Below, piece by piece: positions 19,796 through 50,112 of a stretch of 52,115 nt of DNA. Source of the DNA: an uncultured Pseudomonadota bacterium (GTDB lineage Bacteria > Pseudomonadota > Gammaproteobacteria > Ga0077536); NCBI GenBank assembly GCA_903825645.1, contig CAIKBL010000065.1, positions 1-52,115 on the forward strand, given 5' to 3'. Every line of letters starts with the position of its first letter. Positions within the stretch are counted from its first letter, which is position 1. The notes beneath the pieces are model-generated. The model saw nothing but the letters and a program-made list of their open reading frames with translations. It had not been told where the DNA came from and ran no database searches. The translations under genes and the position numbers were made by a program.

Positions 19796-20767
19796 ATGAC
19801 GAAACAATCCCATTCCATGTCTGCCTCATGTGCCCGCATCCTCGTCACCGGTGGCGCAGGTTTCTTAGGTTCCCACCTCTGCGAGGCTTTGCTCGCACAG
19901 GGGCACGAAGTGCTGTGCGTCGATAACTATTTCACCGGCAGTAAGGAAAACATTTCGCACCTACTCGCGAATCCTCGCTTCGAGATCATGCGACACGACG
20001 TGACGTTCCCGCTCCACATCGAGTGTGACCAAATCTACAATCTCGCCTGCCCGGCTTCGCCGGTGCACTACCAGTTCAACCCCGTGCAGACCGTCAAAAC
20101 GAGCGTCCACGGCGCCATCAATATGCTCGGGCTCGCCAAGCGCGTGCGCGCTCGCATCCTGCAAGCCTCTACCAGCGAGGTATACGGCGATCCGGGCGTC
20201 CATCCCCAGGATGAATCCTACTGGGGCAACACCAATCCTATCGGTCTGCGGGCCTGTTACGACGAAGGCAAGCGCTGCGCGGAGACACTCTTCTTCGACT
20301 ACCGCCGGCAGCATGCGCTCGAAATCAAAGTCGCGCGCATCTTCAATACTTACGGGCCGCGTATGCACCCGAACGACGGACGGGTGGTCTCAAATTTCAT
20401 CATGCAAGCCTTGCGTCACCAGCCCATCACGCTGTACGGCGACGGGCAACAAACACGCTCATTCTGTTACGTGGACGATCTCATCCGAGGGCTTATCGCG
20501 CTGATGAATACGCCTGACGAGGTGATCGGTCCTATCAACCTAGGCAATCCTGACGAATTCACGATCGAGGAGCTCGCGCGCCTCGTCATCGAGCTCACCG
20601 GTTCGCGCTCTTCGCTTACCTACCAACCACTGCCGAGCGATGATCCGCGACAGCGCTGCCCGGTAATCTCAAAAGCGCGTGACACCCTAGGATGGGTACC
20701 GCAGGTAAAACTGCGCGAAGGACTGACGAAAACGATCGAATTCTTTGCAGGGCGCCTCACGCCGTAA
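19796..20767 (+). CDS. NAD-dependent sugar-nucleotide SDR, probable UDP-glucuronate decarboxylase (UDP-xylose synthase)
   Basis: A 323-residue extended short-chain dehydrogenase. The NAD motif GGAGFLG is at 19-25, the catalytic Thr-Ser-Glu at 126-128 (STSEVYGDP), and Tyr155-x3-Lys159 in CYDEGKR. The segments [30 protein letters not shown] and [12 protein letters not shown] are characteristic of UDP-xylose synthase, which converts UDP-glucuronate to UDP-xylose through a 4-keto intermediate. The protein is soluble and cytoplasmic. It sits alone on the plus strand between fliJ and fliK, with AGG 8 nt before the ATG. A role in flagellar or surface glycan supply is inferred from position only. Another sugar-nucleotide dehydratase or epimerase of the same family is possible. 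Confidence 0.85.
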
Positions 20768-29293: not shown

Positions 29294-30739
29294 TCAGAGG
29301 TCCGACGCTTCTTCTTGACGGTTTAGACCCAGTTTTCGCATTTTCTCTACCAGCGTAGTCCGCCCCATTTGCAAACGTTTCGCGGCGTGGGCGACCACCC
29401 AGCTCTCCTCTTCCAGGGCTTGGATAATCAGAGAACTTTCGATTTGTGTCAGGTGCTCCTTAAGATCGAGCCCGCGCCGGGGAAGTTGGGCCACCGGCAA
29501 GCCGCCCGCCGATCCTTCGTCTTGCCTCGCCACGGCCGTGATCGCCGACGGTGGCGTTCCGAACCGAGAAAAATCCGCCTCGCTGTGGTATTTGCCGGGC
29601 AAATCGTGCCCATCGATGACGCCGTTGGGGTACAAGATAGATAACCGTTCGATGAGGTTGGCGAGCTCCCGGACATTGCCTGGCCAGGTGTAACGGGAAA
29701 GGGCCTCGATACAGGCATCCGTCAGCCGGATATTGCCCCGCCCTTCATGGCCCATGCGTTGCACGAGATCGTTCACCAGCAGAGGTAGATCTTCGACTCG
29801 CTCCCGCAACGGCGGTGTTTCGATCGGAAAAACATTCAAGCGATAGAATAAGTCCTCGCGGAATCGCCCCTCTTCGATCGCGCGCTCGAGGTTTACATGG
29901 GTCGCCGCGATGATCCGTACATTCACCGTAATGCTCTTGCTGCTCCCCACCCGCTCGAAGGTCCGCTCCTGCAGTACCCGTAAGAGCTTGACCTGCATCG
30001 GCAAGCTCATGTCACCAATCTCATCGAGAAATAATGTCCCGCCATCGGCGGTCTCGAAACGGCCCTGTCGGCTCGTGATAGCGCCCGTAAAGGCCCCTTT
30101 TTCGTGGCCAAACAATTCACTTTCCAGGAGGTCGGGTGGAATCGCCCCGCAATTGATGGGGACAAACGGCTGACTGCGACGCATCGAGTGATGATGGATG
30201 TGCCGCGCGACCACTTCCTTGCCGGTCCCGGAATCGCCGATGACGAGAACGTTGGCATCGCTCTTGGCCACCATCTCAATCATGTTGCGTACCCGCTGGA
30301 TCCCTTTGCTGCTCCCCACCAGATTCCGGAAAAGCTCCGGATTGCGCGCTTTCCCCTCTAACTGTCTGTTTTCTCTATAGGTTTCTACTTTTTCAAGCAA
30401 CTTTTCGAACTGCCCATGACGAACCGGGACCCGAATTCGACCGAAAACGCCCACTTCGATGTCTTCGCCAAAGGACTTGTCATCGTCCCGATCGACGATC
30501 AATAAGGGGGAATATGGGAAAATATCCCGAAGCTCCTCGAAGGTCGCTCGCCGGCTCTCAGCCTCACCGCAATGACCGAGCAAGATAAAATAGGGCTTGT
30601 GCTGGGCGCCCGGTGGGGCTCGCCACGGGCCTTCGCTTTTAAAAGCAAACGGTTGCAGGTCTAGATAGCCGAGGATTTCGCTGAGGTGACGGGAAATCTC
30701 CCCATCGTCCTCAACCACGAGCACGGGTAGGTCTGCCAT
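29294..30739 (-). CDS. fleQ: Flagellar master regulator FleQ (FlrA), sigma-54 enhancer-binding protein
   Basis: A 481-residue activator with three parts. The N-terminal FleQ receiver-like domain (1-120) lacks a standard phosphoacceptor arrangement. The AAA+ domain has Walker A GDSGTGKE at 168-175 and GAFTGA at 215-220. A C-terminal Fis-type helix-turn-helix follows (VAHAAKRLQMGRTTLVEKM). The LFRN motif (136-139) lies where Pseudomonas FleQ has LFRS, a region involved in c-di-GMP binding, so nucleotide control is plausible but not shown. It should switch on the sigma-54 promoters listed here. Confidence 0.95.
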   Translation of the reverse strand: MADLPVLVVEDDGEISRHLSEILGYLDLQPFAFKSEGPWRAPPGAQHKPYFILLGHCGEAESRRATFEELRDIFPYSPLLIVDRDDDKSFGEDIEVGVFGRIRVPVRHGQFEKLLEKVETYRENRQLEGKARNPELFRNLVGSSKGIQRVRNMIEMVAKSDANVLVIGDSGTGKEVVARHIHHHSMRRSQPFVPINCGAIPPDLLESELFGHEKGAFTGAITSRQGRFETADGGTLFLDEIGDMSLPMQVKLLRVLQERTFERVGSSKSITVNVRIIAATHVNLERAIEEGRFREDLFYRLNVFPIETPPLRERVEDLPLLVNDLVQRMGHEGRGNIRLTDACIEALSRYTWPGNVRELANLIERLSILYPNGVIDGHDLPGKYHSEADFSRFGTPPSAITAVARQDEGSAGGLPVAQLPRRGLDLKEHLTQIESSLIIQALEEESWVVAHAAKRLQMGRTTLVEKMRKLGLNRQEEASDL

Positions 30740-30869: not shown

Positions 30870-31241
30870 CTAACGCCCGCCGGCAACCGAAAGGTATTTC
30901 GACGCCGCGCGCGCGCCTTGATCGATGTCTAGAAGCGCCTGATGACTCGCCTGGCGGGCCTGACTGACAGTGCGGGCGATTTCCTGCGTGGCCCGCAAGG
31001 CATCCCGCAGCACGGCACCAACGGCGCTGCGGGACAGCGGCGCCGGCGCATGGGCGAAGGCCTGGATGGGGAGCTCTGCCAACAACCGATGACGCGCCTC
31101 CTCAAGGGTGGCGAGGCCAGACCAATCTGCCATCGCGGCGGCTTCAGACATCTCGCGGGTCAACCGTTCAACCCCGCGTAGTGCGGCCAATGCGGTGGGT
31201 ACCGCAGCATCGGCCGATATCGGCTCAGGCGGACGTTGCAT
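30870..31241 (-). CDS. fliT: FliT-like flagellar chaperone
   Basis: A 123-residue, helix-rich, charged protein directly after fliS and overlapping its end by 17 bp. This is the position and size of FliT, the export chaperone of the FliD cap protein. Helical segments such as AAMADWSGLATLEEARHRLLAELP match the FliT pattern, but the family is poorly conserved, so the call rests partly on context. It is separated here from its presumed client fliD by the accessory plus-strand block. Confidence 0.75.
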   Translation of the reverse strand: MQRPPEPISADAAVPTALAALRGVERLTREMSEAAAMADWSGLATLEEARHRLLAELPIQAFAHAPAPLSRSAVGAVLRDALRATQEIARTVSQARQASHQALLDIDQGARAASKYLSVAGGR

Positions 31242-31647
31242 CGCCGATCACTTTGGGCGCGATGCCGTTCCAGCCGATCAAAATCTCCTTCAGGAGCCGG
31301 ACCACCTCTTCCAGAATCGCCGTATCGTTATAGTAATTCGCGATGATAAGCCGACGTCCCACATAGTCGTACAAGGCGTCGAGATTCGCGGCAATCTGAC
31401 CGCCCGCTTTGAGATTGAGCGCGGATTTCAGACCATTGATAATCGCCAACGCGCGCTCGATATGTTCGCATTTCGGTCCAATCTGACGATTATCCATTAA
31501 TACGCGAGCCACCTGAATCTTGCTGATCGCGCCTTCAAGAAGCAGCTGAATCAATTTATGCGGAGATGCGCCTTTCACGGACGACTCGACGTCGACCAAT
31601 CGATATTGCGCGGCACCGTTTTTGATATTGCGCTGCGTCATACTCAT
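31225..31647 (-). CDS. fliS: Flagellin export chaperone FliS
   Basis: A 140-residue four-helix-bundle chaperone. The signature SSVKGASPHKLIQLLLEGAI lies near the N terminus, with helices containing ALAIINGLKSALNLKAGGQIAANLDALYDYVGRRL. It binds the flagellin C terminus before export. The ATG at 31647 has GGGGA 7 nt upstream. It is first in a minus-strand fliS-fliT-fleQ arrangement and is diverged from its client gene fliC, which lies on the plus strand beyond two unrelated genes. Confidence 0.95.
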   Translation of the reverse strand: MSMTQRNIKNGAAQYRLVDVESSVKGASPHKLIQLLLEGAISKIQVARVLMDNRQIGPKCEHIERALAIINGLKSALNLKAGGQIAANLDALYDYVGRRLIIANYYNDTAILEEVVRLLKEILIGWNGIAPKVIGDATSA

Positions 31648-32048
31648 TCATTTATCCCCTTGCGTATTCCTTGGCGAAGATCGTGTGGCTGCCACCCGGC
31701 AGCCGATCCTGAACACAACCCCGTTAGCGTTAGCTCTCAACATCGATGAAACCAAGCTCGGCGATGGCTCATGACTCAAAAGCACATAGCGGCGCACACA
31801 CATTTCACTTGAACCTATTTTTAGCGGCTCACCCAAGGAGGTCGAGCGCATCCACGAAGCGTACGGGCATCGGCGGCCACGCGCGGGCTCCGAGACGCAG
31901 CACGGGGATTGATACGGCCAGTACCCGAGGTTTTGCCTAGCCGAGTCAGCGCGCGGTGGGACACCACACGCGAGCGCTGCTCCGGCGCGATTGCGTTTCT
32001 TCTAGTCGAGCGTTATTTTCAGTTCACTTTATTTGGCGGCAATTTGTC
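31648..32048. other. 401-bp divergent intergenic region between fliS and the thiolase-like gene
   Basis: No gene is seen. The fliS-proximal side holds the hairpin at 31679-31708 and a short direct repeat, GTTAGC-GTTAGC (31723-31734). The thiolase-proximal side ends in an AT-richer stretch (32000-32035) that could hold a promoter. I found no convincing sigma-54 or sigma-28 site for either gene, so they may use housekeeping promoters. Confidence 0.5.
31679..31708 (-). promoter_or_regulatory. Hairpin in the fliS upstream region
   Basis: An inner stem GGCTGCC/GGCAGCC around ACCC is extended by outer GATCG/CGATC arms with a small bulge. It lies 32-61 bp upstream of the fliS ATG. It could be a leader stem or an operator; no transcription start is evident. 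Confidence 0.4.
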
Positions 32049-33200
32049 ATGCCCTTACATCGTCAAGGCGTCATCAGCGGCATCGGGGAAACCGCCTATT
32101 CCAAACTCTCCCGCAAAAGCGTGCTTGCGCTGCATCTCGAGGCTTCCCTTGCCGCCATTGCGGACGCCGGCCTGCATCCGACGGATATCGACGGGATCCT
32201 GCCCTATGGTGGGGTTGGGGTAGTCGCGGAGGACTTCATTACGAATTTCGGCCTGAGGGATGTCCGCCTCTCGGCGAATACGCCGTTGGGTGGCGCGAGC
32301 CCTGTGGCCGCAGTCCAGACCGCATTGGCCGCCGTCGCCAGCGGCATCTGTCGTCACGTGCTGATTCCCATCGGCCGTAACGGCGCCTCTGGTGGACGGA
32401 TCTCGACGCGGTTGCGCGAAATGCCGCAGTTTCGGGCGCAGGCCGAGTTCGAACTGCCCATGGGCGCCTTTGCGCCGGCACAAATCTATGCGCCGATGGC
32501 GCGTCGCCACATGGAGCTCTACGGCACAACCTCGCGTCATTTTGCGGAAATAGCCGTTTCGACGCGTGATAACGCGCTCTTGAATGGGAACGCGATGATG
32601 ACGACGCCCCTGACCGTCGAGGCGCACCAATCCTCCCGCTTAATTGCCGATCCCTTCCATCTGTACGACTGCAGTCTTGAGAGTGATGGCGGCGCGGCTG
32701 TGATCGTGTCACGTGCGGATTGTGCGCGTGATCTGCGGCAACCGCTGATCGAAATTCTGGGCGTGGCAGAAGGTCATCCGGATTCCCCTAGTTCCATTAC
32801 CCAGCGCCCCGACCTTATCCCAATAGGTCTCGACAAGGCGGCGCCCCGTGCCTTCGCGATGGCGGGCGTAACGCACAAGGATATTGATGTGGCCGAAATC
32901 TACGACTGTTTCACCTATGTCGTATTACGACAATTAGAAGCGCTTGGTTTTTGCGGGCTCGGCGAAGGCGGGCCTTTTGTGGCTTCCGGCGCTATCCGGC
33001 TGAAGGGCGCGCTTCCCATTAACACCCATGGCGGTCTGCTCTCACAGGCCCACCTAGTCGGCATGAATCACATTGTCGAGCTGGTACGGCAACTACGCGG
33101 CACAGCAGGTCGTGCGCAAGTTAAAGAGGCGCGCATTGGTCTCGTCACGGGTTACGGCGACATGGGTGATGGCAGCATTGCGATTCTGGCACGCGCATGA
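32049..33200 (+). CDS. Thiolase-fold protein (SCP2-thiolase/lipid-transfer type) without nucleophilic Cys
   Basis: A 383-residue thiolase-superfamily protein. Family segments in the second half are DVAEIYDCFTYVVLRQLEALG, NTHGGLLSQAHLVGMNH, ELVRQLRGTAGRAQV and GYGDMGDGS. In the first half, where thiolases carry the acyl-accepting cysteine, this protein reads NTPLGGASPVAAV and has none. Ordinary thiolysis or condensation is therefore unlikely. Members paired with a DUF35 protein include aldolase-type enzymes (Ltp2 with ChsH2), so acyl-CoA retro-aldol chemistry is a fair inference. The start is ATG 32049; the frame is open further upstream, but that part does not resemble the family. The stop overlaps the DUF35 gene. 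Confidence 0.85.
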   Translation: MPLHRQGVISGIGETAYSKLSRKSVLALHLEASLAAIADAGLHPTDIDGILPYGGVGVVAEDFITNFGLRDVRLSANTPLGGASPVAAVQTALAAVASGICRHVLIPIGRNGASGGRISTRLREMPQFRAQAEFELPMGAFAPAQIYAPMARRHMELYGTTSRHFAEIAVSTRDNALLNGNAMMTTPLTVEAHQSSRLIADPFHLYDCSLESDGGAAVIVSRADCARDLRQPLIEILGVAEGHPDSPSSITQRPDLIPIGLDKAAPRAFAMAGVTHKDIDVAEIYDCFTYVVLRQLEALGFCGLGEGGPFVASGAIRLKGALPINTHGGLLSQAHLVGMNHIVELVRQLRGTAGRAQVKEARIGLVTGYGDMGDGSIAILARA

Positions 33201-33607
33201 ATACACCACTCCCCCCCCGTCCTTCACCGGAGCCAACCGTCGATTCCCTGCCTTACTGGACCGGCTTGCGGGAACATCGACTTTGTTTACAACAGTGTGC
33301 CGCATGCGGTACGACACGGCATTATCCCCGTCCCCTTTGTGCGACGTGTTTTTCCAGCGCGGTCACCTGGATAAACGCGCAGGGAACTGGCGAAGTACAC
33401 AGCTGGACAGTCGCCCATCACGCGTTCCATCCGGCTTTCAAAAGCGAACTGCCCTACACACTCGTCACGGTTGATCTACCCGAAGGGGTGCGGATCCTGG
33501 CGCCGTTCCGAGGCGACTCGGCAGACTTGCGTCTCGGCTTGCCGGTGCGACTAATCTTTGAAGAAATATTGCCAGAGTTGACACTTCCGGCCTTTATAAG
33601 GGGGTAA
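33197..33607 (+). CDS. DUF35 zinc-ribbon/OB-fold acyl-CoA-associated protein
   Basis: A 136-residue protein with an N-terminal rubredoxin-like zinc ribbon (Cys34-x2-Cys37 and Cys48-x2-Cys51), followed by an OB-fold (GTGEVHSWTVAHHAFHP, VTVDLPEGVRILAPF). DUF35 proteins partner with thiolase-fold enzymes, often helping acyl-CoA binding. The ATG overlaps the thiolase stop by 4 bp, which strongly suggests a complex of the two products. A strong hairpin follows its stop. Presence between fliS and fliC is not typical of flagellar clusters I know. Confidence 0.88.
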   Translation: MNTPLPPRPSPEPTVDSLPYWTGLREHRLCLQQCAACGTTRHYPRPLCATCFSSAVTWINAQGTGEVHSWTVAHHAFHPAFKSELPYTLVTVDLPEGVRILAPFRGDSADLRLGLPVRLIFEEILPELTLPAFIRG

Positions 33608-33613
33608 CGTCTT

Positions 33614-33649
33614 CGCGGGACGAGCCAACCATTCGGCTCAAGTCTCGCG
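33614..33649 (+). terminator. Hairpin after the thiolase/DUF35 operon
   Basis: An 8-bp outer stem (CGCGGGAC with GTCTCGCG, one G-U pair) encloses a 5-bp inner stem GAGCC/GGCTC. It begins 7 nt after the DUF35 stop. There is no T-tract, so termination would need Rho or be incomplete, but it probably insulates this operon from fliC. Confidence 0.5.
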
Positions 33650-33762
33650 CACCGACAGACGCCATTACCTATTCGTGTCTCGGCGCGCCGCGCCGGACGT
33701 TGGCTGGCACGCACGCAAAATGCGCACTCCGTCACAACGTTCAAATCTCCGTGATTTCCCCT

Positions 33763-33789
33763 TAAGAAATTTCCCCGTCGCGCCGATAA
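33763..33789 (+). promoter_or_regulatory. Sigma-28 (FliA) promoter of fliC
   Basis: The -35 element TAAG (33763-33766) and the -10 element GCCGATAA (33782-33789) are separated by exactly 15 nt. The -10 is a perfect match to the sigma-28 consensus and the -35 differs at one base. The start would be near 33796, giving a leader of about 97 nt. Confidence 0.88.
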
Positions 33790-33800
33790 GGTTTTCGGGA

Positions 33801-33832
33801 GGCGGTGAATGTTCATTTCGAACATGTCCGCC
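33801..33832 (+). promoter_or_regulatory. 5'-terminal stem-loop of the fliC mRNA
   Basis: The outer stem GGCGG/CCGCC and inner stem ATGTTC/GAACAT surround a 5-nt loop, with a small asymmetric internal loop. It begins about 5 nt after the predicted start of transcription. A 5' stem-loop in this place is a known way to protect abundant mRNAs from decay. Confidence 0.6.
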
Positions 33833-33892
33833 AAATAAAATCCGGCTCCGGAACGCGCCACCCACGCGAAAGGAGCCACGAGGAGACTTCTC

Positions 33893-35377
33893 ATGCTTGG
33901 CAACAGTATTCTTACGAATTCCAATTCATTTATCACCCAGCAAAATCTCTCTAGCTCTGAGGCCGCACTGTCGGCCTCAATGCAGCGCCTGTCCTCCGGT
34001 CTAAAAATCAATAGTGCAGCGGATGATCCGGCGGGATATGCCATTGCGGCCCGCATGCAGACCCAGATCGGCGGTCTCGGTGTCTCCACCCAAAACGCGA
34101 ATCAGGCCTTGTCCATTGCGCAGACCGCCCAGGGGTCAATGCAGGACATGCTGAACGACATGAACAGTGCGCACAATCTGGCCGTCCAAGCAGCGAGTTT
34201 CAATACGGCAACTGATCGCACCTCACTCAACGCTCAGGTATCACAGCTGACCCAGGAAATGGGTCGCGTGGTCCAGCAGACCACCTATAACGGCTCCACC
34301 TTGCTGGACGGGTCTTTCACCGGTCAATTCCAGATTGGTGCCTCCGTCGGTCAAACGTTCAGCATGGGGATCCAGAATCTCTCCACGAGCGCGCTGGGTG
34401 TCTCGAGCAACTATGCGACGATCGCGAACCAGACCTCTGCGCAGCTGGCCACGCAAATAGCCGGTGCCTATAACGGCTCCTATGCCGCTATCGATACAAT
34501 CGGCGGCATTGCGTTGGGTAATGCGGAGAGCGCAAATACAAACTCTTCTGCCAAAATCTCAGATATCAACGCGCTGACCGCACAAACAGGGATCACCGCA
34601 TTCAGTGTGGGAAATGGACTCGTTGGCGCAAGTGCGGTTAGCGCAACCTTGAACTCGTTGGGCATTGCCGCCGGTGCGCTGACCATCAATGGTGTTTCCA
34701 TCGGGGCCACGTCCGCCGGTACCGACAACGGAACGCTCGCCACTAATCTTGCGACGGCAATCAATGCCGCCACAAGCCAAACCGGCGTAACCGCCGATAC
34801 AGTGGTAACGGGCACCGGGACCCAGCTGGTACTGACAAACACCACGGGCGCAGCCATCACTGCGCAAGCGAATCTGGGTGTCGATGCCAACATCGGGACA
34901 TTCTTCGCCTCTGGCACGACGACAATGGCCGCAGGCGCCAACGGCGCCATTGCCCTTAGCGATTCCGCCCTAGGTACCCCGACTGTGGGCTTCAACACAA
35001 CGACTACTGGGGCTGCCATCTCTGGTACCGCCGCAACAACGACCGCGCTAAGCAACGAAACGCTCGCCAGTCAAAACGTCTCAACCGCTTCAAACGCCAA
35101 TATGGCGATGCTCGTGTTGGAGAACGCGATGAACACCCTGACCTCGGCCGCTAGCACCCTCGGCGCCCAGGCGGGTCGCCTTCAGGCGGTGGTGACGGAC
35201 TTAGGTAACATGAAGACCAACACGCAAAATGCGCAAGGGACGATTACGAATACCGACTTTGCGGCTGAGACGGCGAACATGACTCGAGCTCAGATTCTGG
35301 TGCAGGCCGGGACCGCGATGGTGTCACAGGCTAACCAGACGCCGAACTTGGTTTTGACACTGCTCAAGAACGCGTAA
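33893..35377 (+). CDS. fliC: Flagellin FliC
   Basis: A 494-residue flagellin. The N-terminal D0/D1 helices contain ASMQRLSSGLKINSAADDPAG and the C-terminal helices contain ADETAN-like FAAETANMTRAQILVQAGTAM. Between them is a Thr/Ala/Ser-rich variable region (about 180-390) that would be surface-exposed and could be a glycosylation target. It lacks Cys and Trp. The last residues are NLVLTLLKNA, a variant of the usual VLSLLR end. The ATG is preceded by GAGGAG at 7 nt. It is transcribed from a sigma-28 promoter, with flaG downstream, and is inverted relative to the fliS chaperone gene. Confidence 0.97.
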   Translation: MLGNSILTNSNSFITQQNLSSSEAALSASMQRLSSGLKINSAADDPAGYAIAARMQTQIGGLGVSTQNANQALSIAQTAQGSMQDMLNDMNSAHNLAVQAASFNTATDRTSLNAQVSQLTQEMGRVVQQTTYNGSTLLDGSFTGQFQIGASVGQTFSMGIQNLSTSALGVSSNYATIANQTSAQLATQIAGAYNGSYAAIDTIGGIALGNAESANTNSSAKISDINALTAQTGITAFSVGNGLVGASAVSATLNSLGIAAGALTINGVSIGATSAGTDNGTLATNLATAINAATSQTGVTADTVVTGTGTQLVLTNTTGAAITAQANLGVDANIGTFFASGTTTMAAGANGAIALSDSALGTPTVGFNTTTTGAAISGTAATTTALSNETLASQNVSTASNANMAMLVLENAMNTLTSAASTLGAQAGRLQAVVTDLGNMKTNTQNAQGTITNTDFAAETANMTRAQILVQAGTAMVSQANQTPNLVLTLLKNA

Positions 35378-35418
35378 CACAAAGACGACGGCATCATCAT
35401 AAAATAGATAGGAAAAGA

Positions 35419-35446
35419 CGCGGTGGGGTCGAAATATCCTGCCGCG
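35419..35446 (+). promoter_or_regulatory. Hairpin between fliC and flaG
   Basis: The arms CGCGG and CCGCG enclose a partly pairing GGG/TCC inner stem. It follows the fliC stop by about 40 nt and is followed by TGTCTTCCTT. It may act as a leaky terminator that keeps flaG and fliD below fliC expression. Confidence 0.4.
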
Positions 35447-35476
35447 TGTCTTCCTTGGTCTAAGAGGGCCGTTCTT

Positions 35477-35842
35477 ATGTTAGACGTAGAATTAGCCTGG
35501 GTTTCAGACTTAACGCAACCAAAGTCGACGGAAATACCCCCGACTGCTCTGGCCAACATTAGTAATGTGAGGCTGGCTGACGTGAGCCAATCGACGCCCT
35601 CATCGGCGCCGATGGCCACCTCGCCCCACCTTGAAATGGCACTGGGTAACGTTACCGCGCATGTTCAAAGTATTCATCGCAGCTTGGTTTTCAATATTGA
35701 TCATATTTCCGGTCAGACGGTAGTGCGCGTAGTCGATAGCAACACCCATCAGGTGATTCGCCAGATGCCATCAGAAGAAATGATGGCACTCGCGGAAAAC
35801 CAACCTTCCTCAACCGGCACACTGCTGGATGAGCAGGTCTAG
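35477..35842 (+). CDS. flaG: FlaG family protein
   Basis: A 121-residue protein. The C-terminal FlaG domain reads SLVFNIDHISGQTVVRVVDSNTHQVIRQMPSEEMM and the N-terminal part is disordered and Ser/Pro/Thr-rich. FlaG sits between fliC and fliD in polar flagellates and affects filament length or stability; its mechanism is unclear. I start at ATG 35477, with GAGGG 8 nt upstream, rather than 18 codons earlier. Confidence 0.93.
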   Translation: MLDVELAWVSDLTQPKSTEIPPTALANISNVRLADVSQSTPSSAPMATSPHLEMALGNVTAHVQSIHRSLVFNIDHISGQTVVRVVDSNTHQVIRQMPSEEMMALAENQPSSTGTLLDEQV

Positions 35843-35852
35843 AAGATCCAAC

Positions 35853-35884
35853 CCGATGCGATACACAAGCGTGTATCGCATCGG
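35853..35884 (+). promoter_or_regulatory. Perfect 14-bp hairpin between flaG and fliD
   Basis: The arms CCGATGCGATACAC (35853-35866) and GTGTATCGCATCGG (35871-35884) are exact complements around AAGC. It begins 10 nt after the flaG stop. No T-tract follows. It probably blocks 3' decay of the fliC-flaG message or reduces read-through into fliD. Confidence 0.7.
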
Positions 35885-35947
35885 ACTGTAACGATACCCT
35901 ATCAGTCTGGGTGAAAGGCCAGCCCAACTGCGCTCGGAGACGAAACA

Positions 35948-37360
35948 ATGACCGGCATTACGAGCAGTACGCCCCCCATCAACTCCCCCGGGATCGGTTC
36001 AGGCATTAACATCTCAAGCATTGTTTCCCAATTGATGGCGGTCAATTCACAACCGTTGACCCAACTGCAGACGCAAGGCACCACGCTTCAATCCGAAATC
36101 AGCGCATACGGACAAATAAAAGCTGCCGTGTCCACTTTCAACGATGCCATCAGCAGTCTAAGCGACCCCACTAAATTTGCGGCTTTTACCGCCAACTCCT
36201 CCGATTCAACGATCGTCGGTGCGACCACATCCGCCGGCGCTGCGAGCGGCGTCTATAACATTACCGTCAACCAACTCGCCACCAACCATCAGATGGCGTC
36301 CAACAGCACCTTTGTCGACACCAATACGACGGCGATCGGTGCTGCAGGTGATGCCATGACGGTAACTGTTGGGACCAAGCCCTTCTCTGTCCAATATGGC
36401 GGCATGACGCTTAGCCAACTCAGCAGCGCCATCAATAGCAACAGCAACAATACGGGTGTCACCGCCTCAATTATCAAGGACGACGCCGGCTATAGACTTT
36501 CGCTAACCAGTAATCAAACCGGAAGTGCCAACGCGATCAGCCTGTCCTACAGTGGGAGCGATCCGTTCGCCATGACCACGTTGAATGTCCTACCCCCGAA
36601 CACCAGCGCATTTACACCCGCCAATCTGGACGCCAGCGTGACGCTGGACGGGCAGTATAAGGTCACGAGTAGCTCCAATACCTTGAGCGAGACCATTCAG
36701 GGCGTGTCATTGACGCTTCAAAAACCAGGCACCGTGACCGTGACTGTCGGACAAAGTAGTTCGACTGTACAGACTTCGGTGCAGAATCTTGTCTCCGCCT
36801 ACAATGCGTTAATGGCGACAGTCCAGCAAGCGGGCGCGGGAGCCCTTCAAACTGACACTGGCGCCATTTACAATCTGGAAAGTCAAATGCGAGCCGCGCT
36901 CAGCACCGCGGGCACCATTCCAAATAGCGGTTTTTCGAACGTGTTTCAGGTCGGGATCAGCACGAACTCCAAAGATGGTAGTCTGTCGCTCAATTCGGAC
37001 ATATTGACGGGCGCCATCGCCCAAGATTATCAGGGCGTGGCAAATCTCTTTACGGATCCGAGCAAGGGCATTGCAGTCCAACTCAAAAATCTAGCCAATA
37101 ATTTCTTGAGCACCGATGGCCCGATCGCATCTAAAATTCAAGGCCTTACCAATCAGGTCAGTCAAAACCAGTCGCAACAAAAAAGTCTGCAGACCCAGCT
37201 TACGTCCGTGCAGGATCGTTTGACGGCGCAGTATCAGGCACTCGATACGCTGGTGGCGAAGCTTCAGCAGTCCGATACCTTGTTGAATTCGCAGTTGGCA
37301 TCCCTCTACGCAAACGAGGGCATCACCACCAATAGCACCAGCACGACCAAGATCGGTTAA
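35948..37360 (+). CDS. fliD: Filament cap protein FliD
   Basis: A 470-residue hook-associated protein 2. The N-terminal segment GIGSGINISSIVSQLMAVNSQPLTQL and the C-terminal coiled coil (NQVSQNQSQQKSLQTQLT, RLTAQYQALDTLVAKLQQSDTLL) are the conserved FliD parts; the middle is a variable cap domain rich in Ser/Thr/Asn. It forms the pentamer that guides flagellin folding at the tip. GGAG lies 8 nt before the ATG. Its chaperone candidate fliT is not adjacent but lies on the other strand beyond fliS. Confidence 0.95.
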   Translation: MTGITSSTPPINSPGIGSGINISSIVSQLMAVNSQPLTQLQTQGTTLQSEISAYGQIKAAVSTFNDAISSLSDPTKFAAFTANSSDSTIVGATTSAGAASGVYNITVNQLATNHQMASNSTFVDTNTTAIGAAGDAMTVTVGTKPFSVQYGGMTLSQLSSAINSNSNNTGVTASIIKDDAGYRLSLTSNQTGSANAISLSYSGSDPFAMTTLNVLPPNTSAFTPANLDASVTLDGQYKVTSSSNTLSETIQGVSLTLQKPGTVTVTVGQSSSTVQTSVQNLVSAYNALMATVQQAGAGALQTDTGAIYNLESQMRAALSTAGTIPNSGFSNVFQVGISTNSKDGSLSLNSDILTGAIAQDYQGVANLFTDPSKGIAVQLKNLANNFLSTDGPIASKIQGLTNQVSQNQSQQKSLQTQLTSVQDRLTAQYQALDTLVAKLQQSDTLLNSQLASLYANEGITTNSTSTTKIG

Positions 37361-37965
37361 TGTGCGGCCTGACAATATGAGACTGACTGCCTGACAGAAT
37401 CCCGGCACTCGCCAGGCTGCGCACTGCCCCTCCTTTCGATAATTCTCGCTGTTTATTTCTATTCCGATAAAAAAGATCGCCAAACCGTTCCTTCGAGAGC
37501 CCAGCGCTTGTGTACCCCGACCTATGGCAAAGCTACTTGCTCGTCTGCGACGTAAAAAAATTATGCGCTAGCAGAACACATCGAAATGGCGCTGAGGCAT
37601 GAAAGAATAATCCGATTACTGATCGAGCGTTTATTTAGACTCGCCACTTGACTCATCTCATTGCCCATATGGATGGCGCGGGCAATCAAGAGGTCTGCAC
37701 ACACGAACTTAAGCGTCGTAATCAAGTCCTATGGATTAAACCACTCTTGACCTAGATCAAAGCAGATCATGATCGGACGCAGCGAAGGACTGAGGGCGCT
37801 GGGTACGCCGGGCGGCACCGGGGGCGGAAACAGGAAAAAAAACTGGCCGACTCTCTCAATCAACAGGGCTGAAAATAGGCCAAAATTAAGATTTTAGACG
37901 ACGACTATTCGATACCCCAGGTGTCTTTTGACTGAGGAGAACGCGTATCCCGCAGAGCGGACATA
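37361..37965. other. 605-bp gap between convergent fliD and flgL
   Basis: Both flanking genes end here, so ordinary promoters are not expected. I see no protein gene. A 15-codon open frame at 37524 (cationic) lacks a ribosome site. Notable elements are an FNR/ANR-like box at 37747-37760, a TCCGATAA sequence near 37463 that resembles a sigma-28 -10 without a proper -35, a GATCATGATC palindrome near 37766, and an eight-adenine run near 37835. No clear T-tract terminator was found for either gene. A small RNA or the scar of a lost gene is possible. Confidence 0.5.
37747..37760. promoter_or_regulatory. FNR/ANR-like box
   Basis: TTGACCTAGATCAA matches the FNR-family consensus TTGAT-N4-ATCAA at all but one position and is nearly palindromic. 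It lies in the convergent fliD/flgL gap, with no obvious target promoter on either side. The match may be chance, or may mark an unannotated small RNA. Confidence 0.4.
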
Positions 37966-39174
37966 TCAACCCTTGATGTAGTTGAACAGGGAGAGTCCTT
38001 GGACGCTCACAAACGTTTGTTGCGCGGCCTGCAAGGCTTGGGTTTCCTGTGCTAGTTGACTGACCGCCTGCACGGTGTTCGTATCCTGCAGATTCGATAG
38101 CATGGTCTGTAGCTGCGTACTCAGCTGACTATTCGTGGTCAATTGGGATTGGATGGCGTTCTGACGCGCTCCGATGGTCGTCAGTGTCGAGGTCAATCCA
38201 CTCATCGCGTTATCGATGGCATTCAGATCATTAGCCAACTGGGCGCTGAACTGCGCTGCACTCTGCGGCGAATTCGAGACCGCCGCAATATCTTGTTGGA
38301 CATTCGATAGGGTGGTAAAGACAGATTGATTCTGACTCGGTGAAATCTGGAAGGTATCTCCTGCCACCGGCGCGCCCGTAATGCCCAGTGAAATGCCATT
38401 GAAACTAATCGGGGCCCCGTCGGTGTAGGGCTGTGCAATGGCAATGGTGGTGCCCGTAGTCGTGTCGATCACGTTATAGGTGCTCGCCGCGGAGAACTGG
38501 ATACTGAATGAATCTGTACTGACCCCAGCAGCATTGGTCACCGCTTCATTGACGGGTTGTCCGGTACCGGCATTCGCAGCTCCGGCAGTCGCTAAAAAGG
38601 TGCCGTTGCCGTTCGGAACCGCCATAAAAACATCCGATCCCGTGACGTTCACACCAACCGTCCGGTTCTCTGCGATGACCATGTTTTGGGCGTTCTGGTT
38701 TCCGTTATAGACCACGTTACCCGTAGCATCGGTAGAGAACGGCTTCGTCTGTACCGCGGTGCCCGAGAAGATATACTCGTTGCTAGCGTTTTGCGTATTC
38801 GCTTGGCTAAGAATTTGACCGAGCTGCTGTCCCACTAAGGCGGCCAGATTTTTGCGATCGGCCAACGACAATGAAGGATTCTGAGCCTGCAGCACCGTTT
38901 CACGGACCTTTTCCATTGAGCTCTGTACCGAAGTCAACGCGGTTTGTTGGTCTTGAAGAGTCAACATGGCTGCATTCGAATTCGTGGTGTACTGCGCCAG
39001 TGCGCCGATTTGATCTGAGAGGGTGATCGATTGCGCCGCAGCTACCGGGTCAACCGATGCGCTCGTGAGTCGATTACCGGACGACACCTGCGCCTGATTG
39101 CTGTTGATCGCCTGTTGCAGATTAGACATCGCCGCCATGGATCCGCCAAAAATTTCACCATTGGTAATACGCAT
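37966..39174 (-). CDS. flgL: Hook-filament junction protein FlgL (HAP3)
   Basis: A 402-residue flagellin-like protein. The N-terminal helix contains SNLQQAINSNQAQVSSGNRLTSASVDP and the C-terminal helices contain TLTTIGARQNAIQSQLTTN. It joins the hook (through FlgK) to the filament. The middle contains a GITGAPVAGDTFQISPS-type module that recurs in FlgK. It begins 2 bp after flgK and is the last gene of the flg operon on this strand. Confidence 0.95.
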   Translation of the reverse strand: MRITNGEIFGGSMAAMSNLQQAINSNQAQVSSGNRLTSASVDPVAAAQSITLSDQIGALAQYTTNSNAAMLTLQDQQTALTSVQSSMEKVRETVLQAQNPSLSLADRKNLAALVGQQLGQILSQANTQNASNEYIFSGTAVQTKPFSTDATGNVVYNGNQNAQNMVIAENRTVGVNVTGSDVFMAVPNGNGTFLATAGAANAGTGQPVNEAVTNAAGVSTDSFSIQFSAASTYNVIDTTTGTTIAIAQPYTDGAPISFNGISLGITGAPVAGDTFQISPSQNQSVFTTLSNVQQDIAAVSNSPQSAAQFSAQLANDLNAIDNAMSGLTSTLTTIGARQNAIQSQLTTNSQLSTQLQTMLSNLQDTNTVQAVSQLAQETQALQAAQQTFVSVQGLSLFNYIKG

Positions 39175-49800: not shown

Positions 49801-50112
49801 ATGGTTTCAGAGATCAATGGGTTGGGCGGTGGCGTACTCTCGGGCCTTAACGGGCCAGCGGCAGGAGCCCCCAGCGCGCCACCGGCGCAAATTAATCAAC
49901 CGCCCAGTGGGTTAAGTGCAAACGTCCATCTCACGGATGTGGGCACGCAACTACAGGCGCTAACCGCGGCCGTCGCCGATCAGCTGCAGGTCGATCCGAC
50001 GCGAGTGACCGATGTCCGCCAGAGCTTGACGCAAGGCACCTATCAAATCGAGCCGCAAGTGACGGCAGACAAACTGATTGCAGTGGAGAATCTGATGGGT
50101 TCAGGACATTAG
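49801..50112 (+). CDS. flgM: Anti-sigma-28 factor FlgM
   Basis: A 103-residue protein with a disordered Gly/Pro/Ala-rich N-terminal half and a C-terminal sigma-binding part, VDPTRVTDVRQSLTQGTYQI then TADKLIAVENLM. It inhibits FliA until it is exported through the finished hook, which releases fliC transcription. The ATG has CGGAG 8 nt upstream. A clear sigma-28 or sigma-54 promoter was not found in the 232-bp gap after flgA. Confidence 0.95.
   Translation: MVSEINGLGGGVLSGLNGPAAGAPSAPPAQINQPPSGLSANVHLTDVGTQLQALTAAVADQLQVDPTRVTDVRQSLTQGTYQIEPQVTADKLIAVENLMGSGH

Follow-up and report, generated by a model that had tools for sequence, protein, structure and literature searches.

A thiolase-fold/DUF35 gene pair between fliS and fliC: a probable acyl-CoA lyase and metabolic passenger in a flagellar region

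Introduction

A thiolase-fold protein is paired with a DUF35 protein in the steroid aldolase Ltp2-ChsH2 (PDB 6ok1), in the bile-acid aldolase Sal-Shy (PDB 9myr), and in BbsAB (7pxp) and PhlBC (5m3k), which are named thiolase or acyltransferase. In CtSal, Tyr302 and Cys304 are essential and a glycine replaces the thiolase nucleophile, according to the available part of the Sal study, which also reports a YDCF motif for Sal-like/SLP enzymes (PMC12329534). A different kind of locus, the flagellin glycosylation island, is found beside fliC.

Here we analyse a thiolase-fold/DUF35 gene pair that shares its location with such islands: it lies between fliS and fliC in the genome of an uncultured gammaproteobacterium (the window, a stretch of 52,115 nucleotides). 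Relatives of this bacterium that lack flagellar genes serve as a natural deletion experiment, which separates location from function and illustrates that a striking neighbourhood can mislead.

Results

The original prediction described two overlapping plus-strand genes for a thiolase-like and a DUF35 protein, placed exactly between the flagellin chaperone and flagellin genes, and it was right in each respect. The first gene (32049..33200, plus strand) encodes a thiolase-fold protein of 383 amino acids, a putative acyl-CoA retro-aldolase subunit (Pfam Thiolase_C_1, 5.6e-49). The second (33197..33607, plus strand) encodes a DUF35 partner of the ChsH2 type with 136 amino acids (zf-ChsH2 7.7e-12, OB_ChsH2_C 1.9e-16). 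Their open reading frames share a real 4-bp overlap, ATGA (33197..33200, plus strand), that joins the thiolase stop to the DUF35 start and recurs in 5/8 orthologues of the genera g1 and g6. Pfam confirmed both direct neighbours, fliS (31225..31647, minus strand; PF02561, 3.4e-33) at a distance of 401 bp and fliC (33893..35377, plus strand; PF00669, PF00700) at 285 bp; the two are divergent.

The rest of the window is a cluster of flagellar and chemotaxis genes bounded by tRNA-Ser and tRNA-Ala, and includes genes that, from their position, we take to be those of FliD, FlaG, FlgL, FlgK, FleS, FleR and FliF. Acyl-CoA pathway genes had been reported missing around the pair, and indeed the Pfam scan of 34 window proteins revealed no acyl-CoA enzyme besides the pair. 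The other scanned proteins were flagellar, chemotaxis-related or regulatory, or compatible with such roles, with the exception of one sugar-nucleotide epimerase and one unmatched protein. The GC content of the pair is close to that of its surroundings, and an obvious compositional mark of recent transfer was not found. The epimerase/dehydratase gene (19796-20767, plus strand) is a second non-flagellar insert, on the opposite strand within the flagellar cluster and adjoining a fliK-like gene.

We modelled the thiolase-fold protein using 58 of the 100 distinct sequences (mean pLDDT 90.3), after an earlier nine-sequence model (pLDDT 44) had been set aside. TcLtp2 was nearest in both profile and structure. 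The best match of the predicted fold was 6ok1 (Foldseek TM 0.92-0.93; VIA Z 56.5, rmsd 1.7, 375 aligned), ahead of Sal (9myr, Z 52.9), archaeal and SCP2-type thiolases (Z 43-50) and biosynthetic thiolases (Z about 36). The 58-sequence profile ranked TcLtp2 6ok1 first (7e-117), followed by 4u4e and CtSal 9myr, while the uncharacterised 4u4e came first in a single-sequence search. In sequence closeness 4u4e, Ltp2 and Sal thus stand ahead of the thiolases; BbsB, PhlC and an archaeal thiolase are weaker matches.

Residues were counted over the 100 distinct sequences, the window's included, of a set of 126 in which 26 repeat another. The window protein carries the motif Y285-D286-C287-F288 and has Gly82 at the alignment position of the thiolase nucleophilic Cys. 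Tyr285 and Gly82 are invariant (100/100 each), and His335 (96/100) and Cys287 (95/100) are nearly so. By our counting on the alignments, Tyr285 and Cys287 correspond to Tyr302 and Cys304 of Sal, and Gly82 to the glycine at the nucleophile place of Sal. The protein therefore has the Tyr/Cys dyad of Sal within YDC as well as the glycine substitution. In contrast, Gln347 and Gln352 of Sal are replaced by Leu330 and His335, so that the proposed Cys-activating network is not the same; the DUF35 domain has a C4 zinc ribbon instead of the C3H1 zinc finger of Sal-Shy, and identity to Sal is 32-33%. Ltp2 is closer (38-40% identity) and shares the fold, YD-x-F and a four-Cys DUF35 partner. However, Cys287 takes the place of the His of its YDHF motif and His335 that of its second catalytic tyrosine, Tyr344; furthermore, the DUF35 protein stands alone here, without a MaoC domain, and no steroid gene was found nearby. 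Judged from the alignments, the window protein fits neither the full Ltp2 nor the full Sal definition and represents a third pattern, YDCF plus His. That is, the architecture is known and the active site is a variant. This subfamily is common, mostly in records titled Alphaproteobacteria here, and we found no member of it with a solved structure. A paralogue in the window genome, on contig C69, has His and Tyr at the places of the YDHF His and Tyr344.

The same fold, the same DUF35 partnership, the weaker matches to BbsB, PhlC and the archaeal thiolase, and the alignment of His335 with the histidine of the thiolase GHP motif would also suit a true thiolase or acyltransferase of the BbsAB or PhlBC type that performs Claisen chemistry. 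We nevertheless consider such an activity quite unlikely, as identity to these proteins is about 24%, YDCF is the motif described for Sal-like/SLP enzymes in the available part of PMC12329534, and the nucleophilic Cys in the N-terminal half that is a trait of catalytic SCP2-type thiolases is Gly82 here. With glycine where the nucleophile is expected, the protein should not be a thiolase. Thiolase function as such was rejected on account of the glycine at this place in all 100 sequences.

The DUF35 protein combines a four-Cys zinc ribbon (CxxC...CxxC, present in 99/102 DUF35 match rows examined) with an OB fold and has no MaoC/hydratase domain. Association of such a protein with the thiolase-fold gene is the rule: among 126 loci searched, 125 gave a thiolase-fold match of at least 330 residues, and 123 of these 125 had a DUF35 match directly downstream. 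Both loci without one are the C4 paralogue of the window genome, counted twice.

The fold nearest to 6ok1, the Tyr/Cys dyad and the DUF35 partner strengthen the earlier comparison with Ltp2/aldolase-like pairs acting on acyl-CoA, and we read the two proteins as an acyl-CoA retro-aldolase. On this reading the products of the pair would form a heteromeric lyase of the thiolase-fold/DUF35 class that splits a carbon-carbon bond in acyl-CoA. A beta-hydroxyacyl-CoA would be bound by the thiolase-fold subunit, where Tyr285 would deprotonate the beta-hydroxyl and Cys287 would donate a proton to the enolate; the products would be a short acyl-CoA together with an aldehyde or a ketone. The DUF35 subunit would give the substrate cleft its shape and lend stability to the presumed complex.

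We then compared 20 stretches of DNA from relatives, taken around fliS or fliC. Five genomes of the window's family (G008, G013, G016, G022, G035) have the region on one contig, and their fliS-fliC interval holds genes for a PseB-like dehydratase, two aminotransferases of the DegT family, an enzyme of the GNAT family and two glycosyltransferases of the TPR-GT41 type. This content looks like a flagellin glycosylation island. The thiolase/DUF35 pair was absent from the interval in all five. G010, G018 and G020 have fliC-flaG-fliD-fliS in a row instead.

Within the genus, the order in G004 is fliS, PseB, DegT, DegT, GNAT, TPR, thiolase, DUF35, photolyase. In G004 both the fliC contig and the fliS contig begin in GT41 sequence, the former inside a gene and the latter with the end of one; either a single split GT41 gene or two neighbouring ones would account for this. 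In G002, one contig reads fliC, GT41, GT41, HD-GYP, DUF35, thiolase and BtuF-like up to its end, and a second starts with GNAT, DegT, DegT, PseB, fliS. The pair thus sits in the fliS-fliC gap in the same orientation in the three flagellated species of the genus (G000, G002, G004), in G002 and G004 as inferred across contig breaks. It is located in the flagellar region in 5/5 genus orthologues.

In the window species (G000), the gap holds the pair alone. Genome-wide searches of the genus used DegT1, GT41 and FliG. The island DegT had no match in the G000 genome, and GT41 had only four (25-34% identity), none of them within the GT41 domain. A search for remnants of sugar genes next to the pair, in the window and in the congener stretches L043 and L044, gave no match at E <0.2. 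The window species has lost the tested sugar genes and kept the pair.

These arrangements bear on whether the pair is a functional island part that provides the flagellin glycan with an acyl group or trims that group. Its place beside the TPR gene and the island GNAT in G004, and beyond the GT41 genes in G002, would agree with such a role. A filament-modifying role is also conceivable, since other loci for flagellin modification contain acyl genes: the available parts of two papers describe vioS, vioR and acp, thiolase-fold/acyl genes, in the Pseudomonas syringae system (PMC3927599), and genes for fatty-acid synthesis in the flagellin islands of enterobacteria (PMC4875605). However, neither protein of the pair contains a sugar or glycosyltransferase domain, the residues are those of a CoA-type lyase, five intact islands lack the pair, and it outlives the island in G000, where DegT and GT41 are gone. 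The co-occurrence with both flagellin and sugar island that marks flagellin-modification genes was not found for the pair. G001 and G003 keep it without FliS, flagellin and FliG, and a flagellar promoter before it does not stand out. No publication linking DUF35 or thiolase with flagellin modification was evident in PMC among the matches listed. An acyl-glycan function is thus unlikely.

FliS, Flagellin_C and FliG were not found in G001 and G003, two draft genomes of the same genus (97% and 90% completeness). In both, fleQ is followed directly by the thiolase and DUF35 genes and then by flgM. The window has homologues of both bordering genes, a fleQ-like sigma-54 activator gene (29294..30739, minus strand) and flgM (49801..50112, plus strand), and its stretch from the pair to flgM comprises about 16 kb of flagellar genes. 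We call G001 and G003 aflagellate on the strength of three families missing from drafts, a pattern that suggests flagellar loss. Because G001 and G003 are sister genomes and are arranged alike, this was probably a single loss that preceded their divergence. The reading frames of the pair are open in both, and dN/dS between them is 0.057 for the thiolase gene, with synonymous sites near saturation (pS 0.64), and 0.18 for DUF35. Purifying selection keeps the pair without a filament. G005, a congener without FliS and FliG, has no close orthologue of the pair, which is therefore dispensable there and not indispensable to the genus.

Despite the missing FliG, FliS and flagellin, G001 and G003 retain fleQ-, fliA-, flhG- and flgM-like genes (L043:4439-10936, L044), and these regulators may have another role there. 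With the tested structural genes gone, the pair lies directly between fleQ and flgM and near the fliA- and flhG-like genes. It might thus be under FleQ/FliA and make motility or biofilm formation respond to acyl-CoA or lipid status while the filament itself is unmodified. We regard this as improbable. The regulators left in these genomes may mark no more than the edges of the deletion, no flagellar genes lie near the pair in the stretches read from genus g6, and a sigma-28 or sigma-54 site scoring above shuffles precedes the thiolase gene in 0/5 genomes.

For sigma-28, the best score before the thiolase gene was reached by 63-100 of 100 shuffles in all five genus genomes; taking sigma-28 and sigma-54 together, scores were ordinary, with 33-100/100 shuffles as good. 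Flagellar sigma-28/sigma-54 control of the pair was dropped as a candidate, nothing having exceeded the shuffles. Among the fliC controls for sigma-28, the window's was reached by 2/100 shuffles and the other six by 0-18/100, so the promoter test has only moderate sensitivity. The window control is a sigma-28-like site that lies beyond the pair and ahead of fliC (33764..33789, plus strand); its octamer GCCGATAA alone is not significant (it occurs in 79/100 shuffles). With this site of its own, fliC need not depend on the pair.

Folding against shuffles revealed a strong RNA hairpin after the pair (33614..33649, plus strand), and the 111-nt stretch that holds it (33590-33700) folds better than 200/200 shuffles (z -3.3). 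The hairpin that the original prediction had called insulating is therefore real and stable. Its insulating role is at most putative: the hairpin has no T-tract, and a terminator scan after the pair found nothing.

Outside the genus, the gene is found elsewhere. In the stretches read, no flagellar genes were detected near the orthologues of genus g6 (G010, G018, G024; 79-80% identity). Two of these orthologues adjoin a MoxR/DUF58/VWA cluster, and the annotated neighbours in g6 do not form an acyl-CoA pathway. A homologue with 72% identity in G013 is on a different contig from the island of that genome. Of 80 titled GTDB loci among the matches listed, three belong to congeners (G001, G003, G004). 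Near the pair in the other 77, no flagellar structural protein was found, and seven loci gave FleQ- or FleS-type cross-hits only, in a test (30 window queries, E 1e-6) whose sensitivity is limited by short contigs and by divergence of flagellar proteins.

Across 88 stretches compared, the families of neighbouring genes, named from one annotated representative for each of ten families, included CoA transferase III (32), amidase (25), methyltransferase (23), TctC receptor (18), 2OG oxygenase (18), two acyl-CoA dehydrogenase families (13 each), FMO (12) and MaoC-like hydratase (10). An acyl-CoA context is thus present but not general, such neighbours being a minority. FAS1-type dehydratase genes often lie beside the pair in a more distant group (62-68% identity) in the window's family, and the C4 copy in the window genome adjoins enoyl-CoA hydratase and acyl-CoA dehydrogenase genes. 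In a FastTree phylogeny, the eight sequences of g1 and g6 formed a clade (support 1.0) within a 38-member clade (0.918) of mostly records titled Alphaproteobacteria, a placement that hints at transfer; the order inside the clade is weakly supported (0.21).

Discussion

Taken together, the pair is probably an acyl-CoA lyase and a genus-old metabolic passenger without a flagellar job. Retention after loss of the sugar genes and without a filament, together with the non-flagellar places outside the genus, underlies this reading of a passenger in a flagellin island, and above all close relatives that lost flagella still keep the pair. The original prediction had offered two options. Cargo at an insertion hotspot gains support from persistence after loss of the tested sugar genes in G000 and of FliS, flagellin and FliG in G001 and G003. 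An acyl-modification or sensing unit tied to the filament is not supported, as the pair outlives island and structural genes, lacks a standout promoter and is absent from five islands; a filament role is unlikely.

As to adjacency to fliC and fliS across species, the location proved common to the genus and did not extend beyond it. Cargo had been expected to show as a site particular to this strain, with close relatives carrying the pair in a catabolic locus. The result lies between these poles, with a genus-wide location and other places outside the genus.

The passenger reading suggests the following course of events. In the ancestor of the genus, the pair would have entered the flagellin-glycosylation interval between fliS and fliC and been kept for its metabolic function. 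Deletions around it would later have removed the sugar genes in the window species and the flagellar structural genes in the two sister congeners, with the pair staying in place. As a counter-point, its 5/5 retention in the flagellar region could reflect a useful linkage. A bolder possibility is that the pair, as a lyase dependent on CoA, creates or strips off an acyl decoration of the filament or cell surface, that it is the sole remnant of the island here, and that it was re-used for another surface target in the aflagellate relatives; we consider this very unlikely.

Some further features of the region deserve mention. The pair is enclosed by the arms of a perfect 12-nt inverted repeat, TTTATTTGGCGG, one immediately upstream of the thiolase start (32028-32039) and the other ahead of fliC (33828-33839). 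It has no exact copy in the congener stretches fetched, and could be chance (about 0.2 expected in the region by our estimate), an operator or a scar. In G004, a Mu-like prophage on contig C47 (L042:2934-8764, L218, L219) is inserted in the photolyase gene within the fliC-fliS interval and makes up most of the length of that interval; the photolyase, cytochrome b5-like and flavodoxin-like genes of this contig share the strand of the pair. Next to fliC, the five genomes represented by L200, L201, L202, L203 and L204 share two neighbouring TPR-GT41 (OGT-like) genes that look like flagellin glycosyltransferase genes.

Finally, we compared the flagellin region of the window (31225-39174) with L038, L042, L198, L199, L200, L202 and L206. 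In the window species, FliC shares only 51-55% identity with that of its relatives, which share 65-83% with each other, and its conserved ends have diverged too. FliD (45-50%, versus 51-63% among the relatives) and FlgL (47-51% versus 55-64%) behave alike, and FliS is less clearly diverged. FleQ is not diverged in the window species, and FleR and FliG are 86% and 82% identical, both in comparison with G002 only. The divergence of FliC, FliD and FlgL in the window species coincides with the loss of the sugar island.
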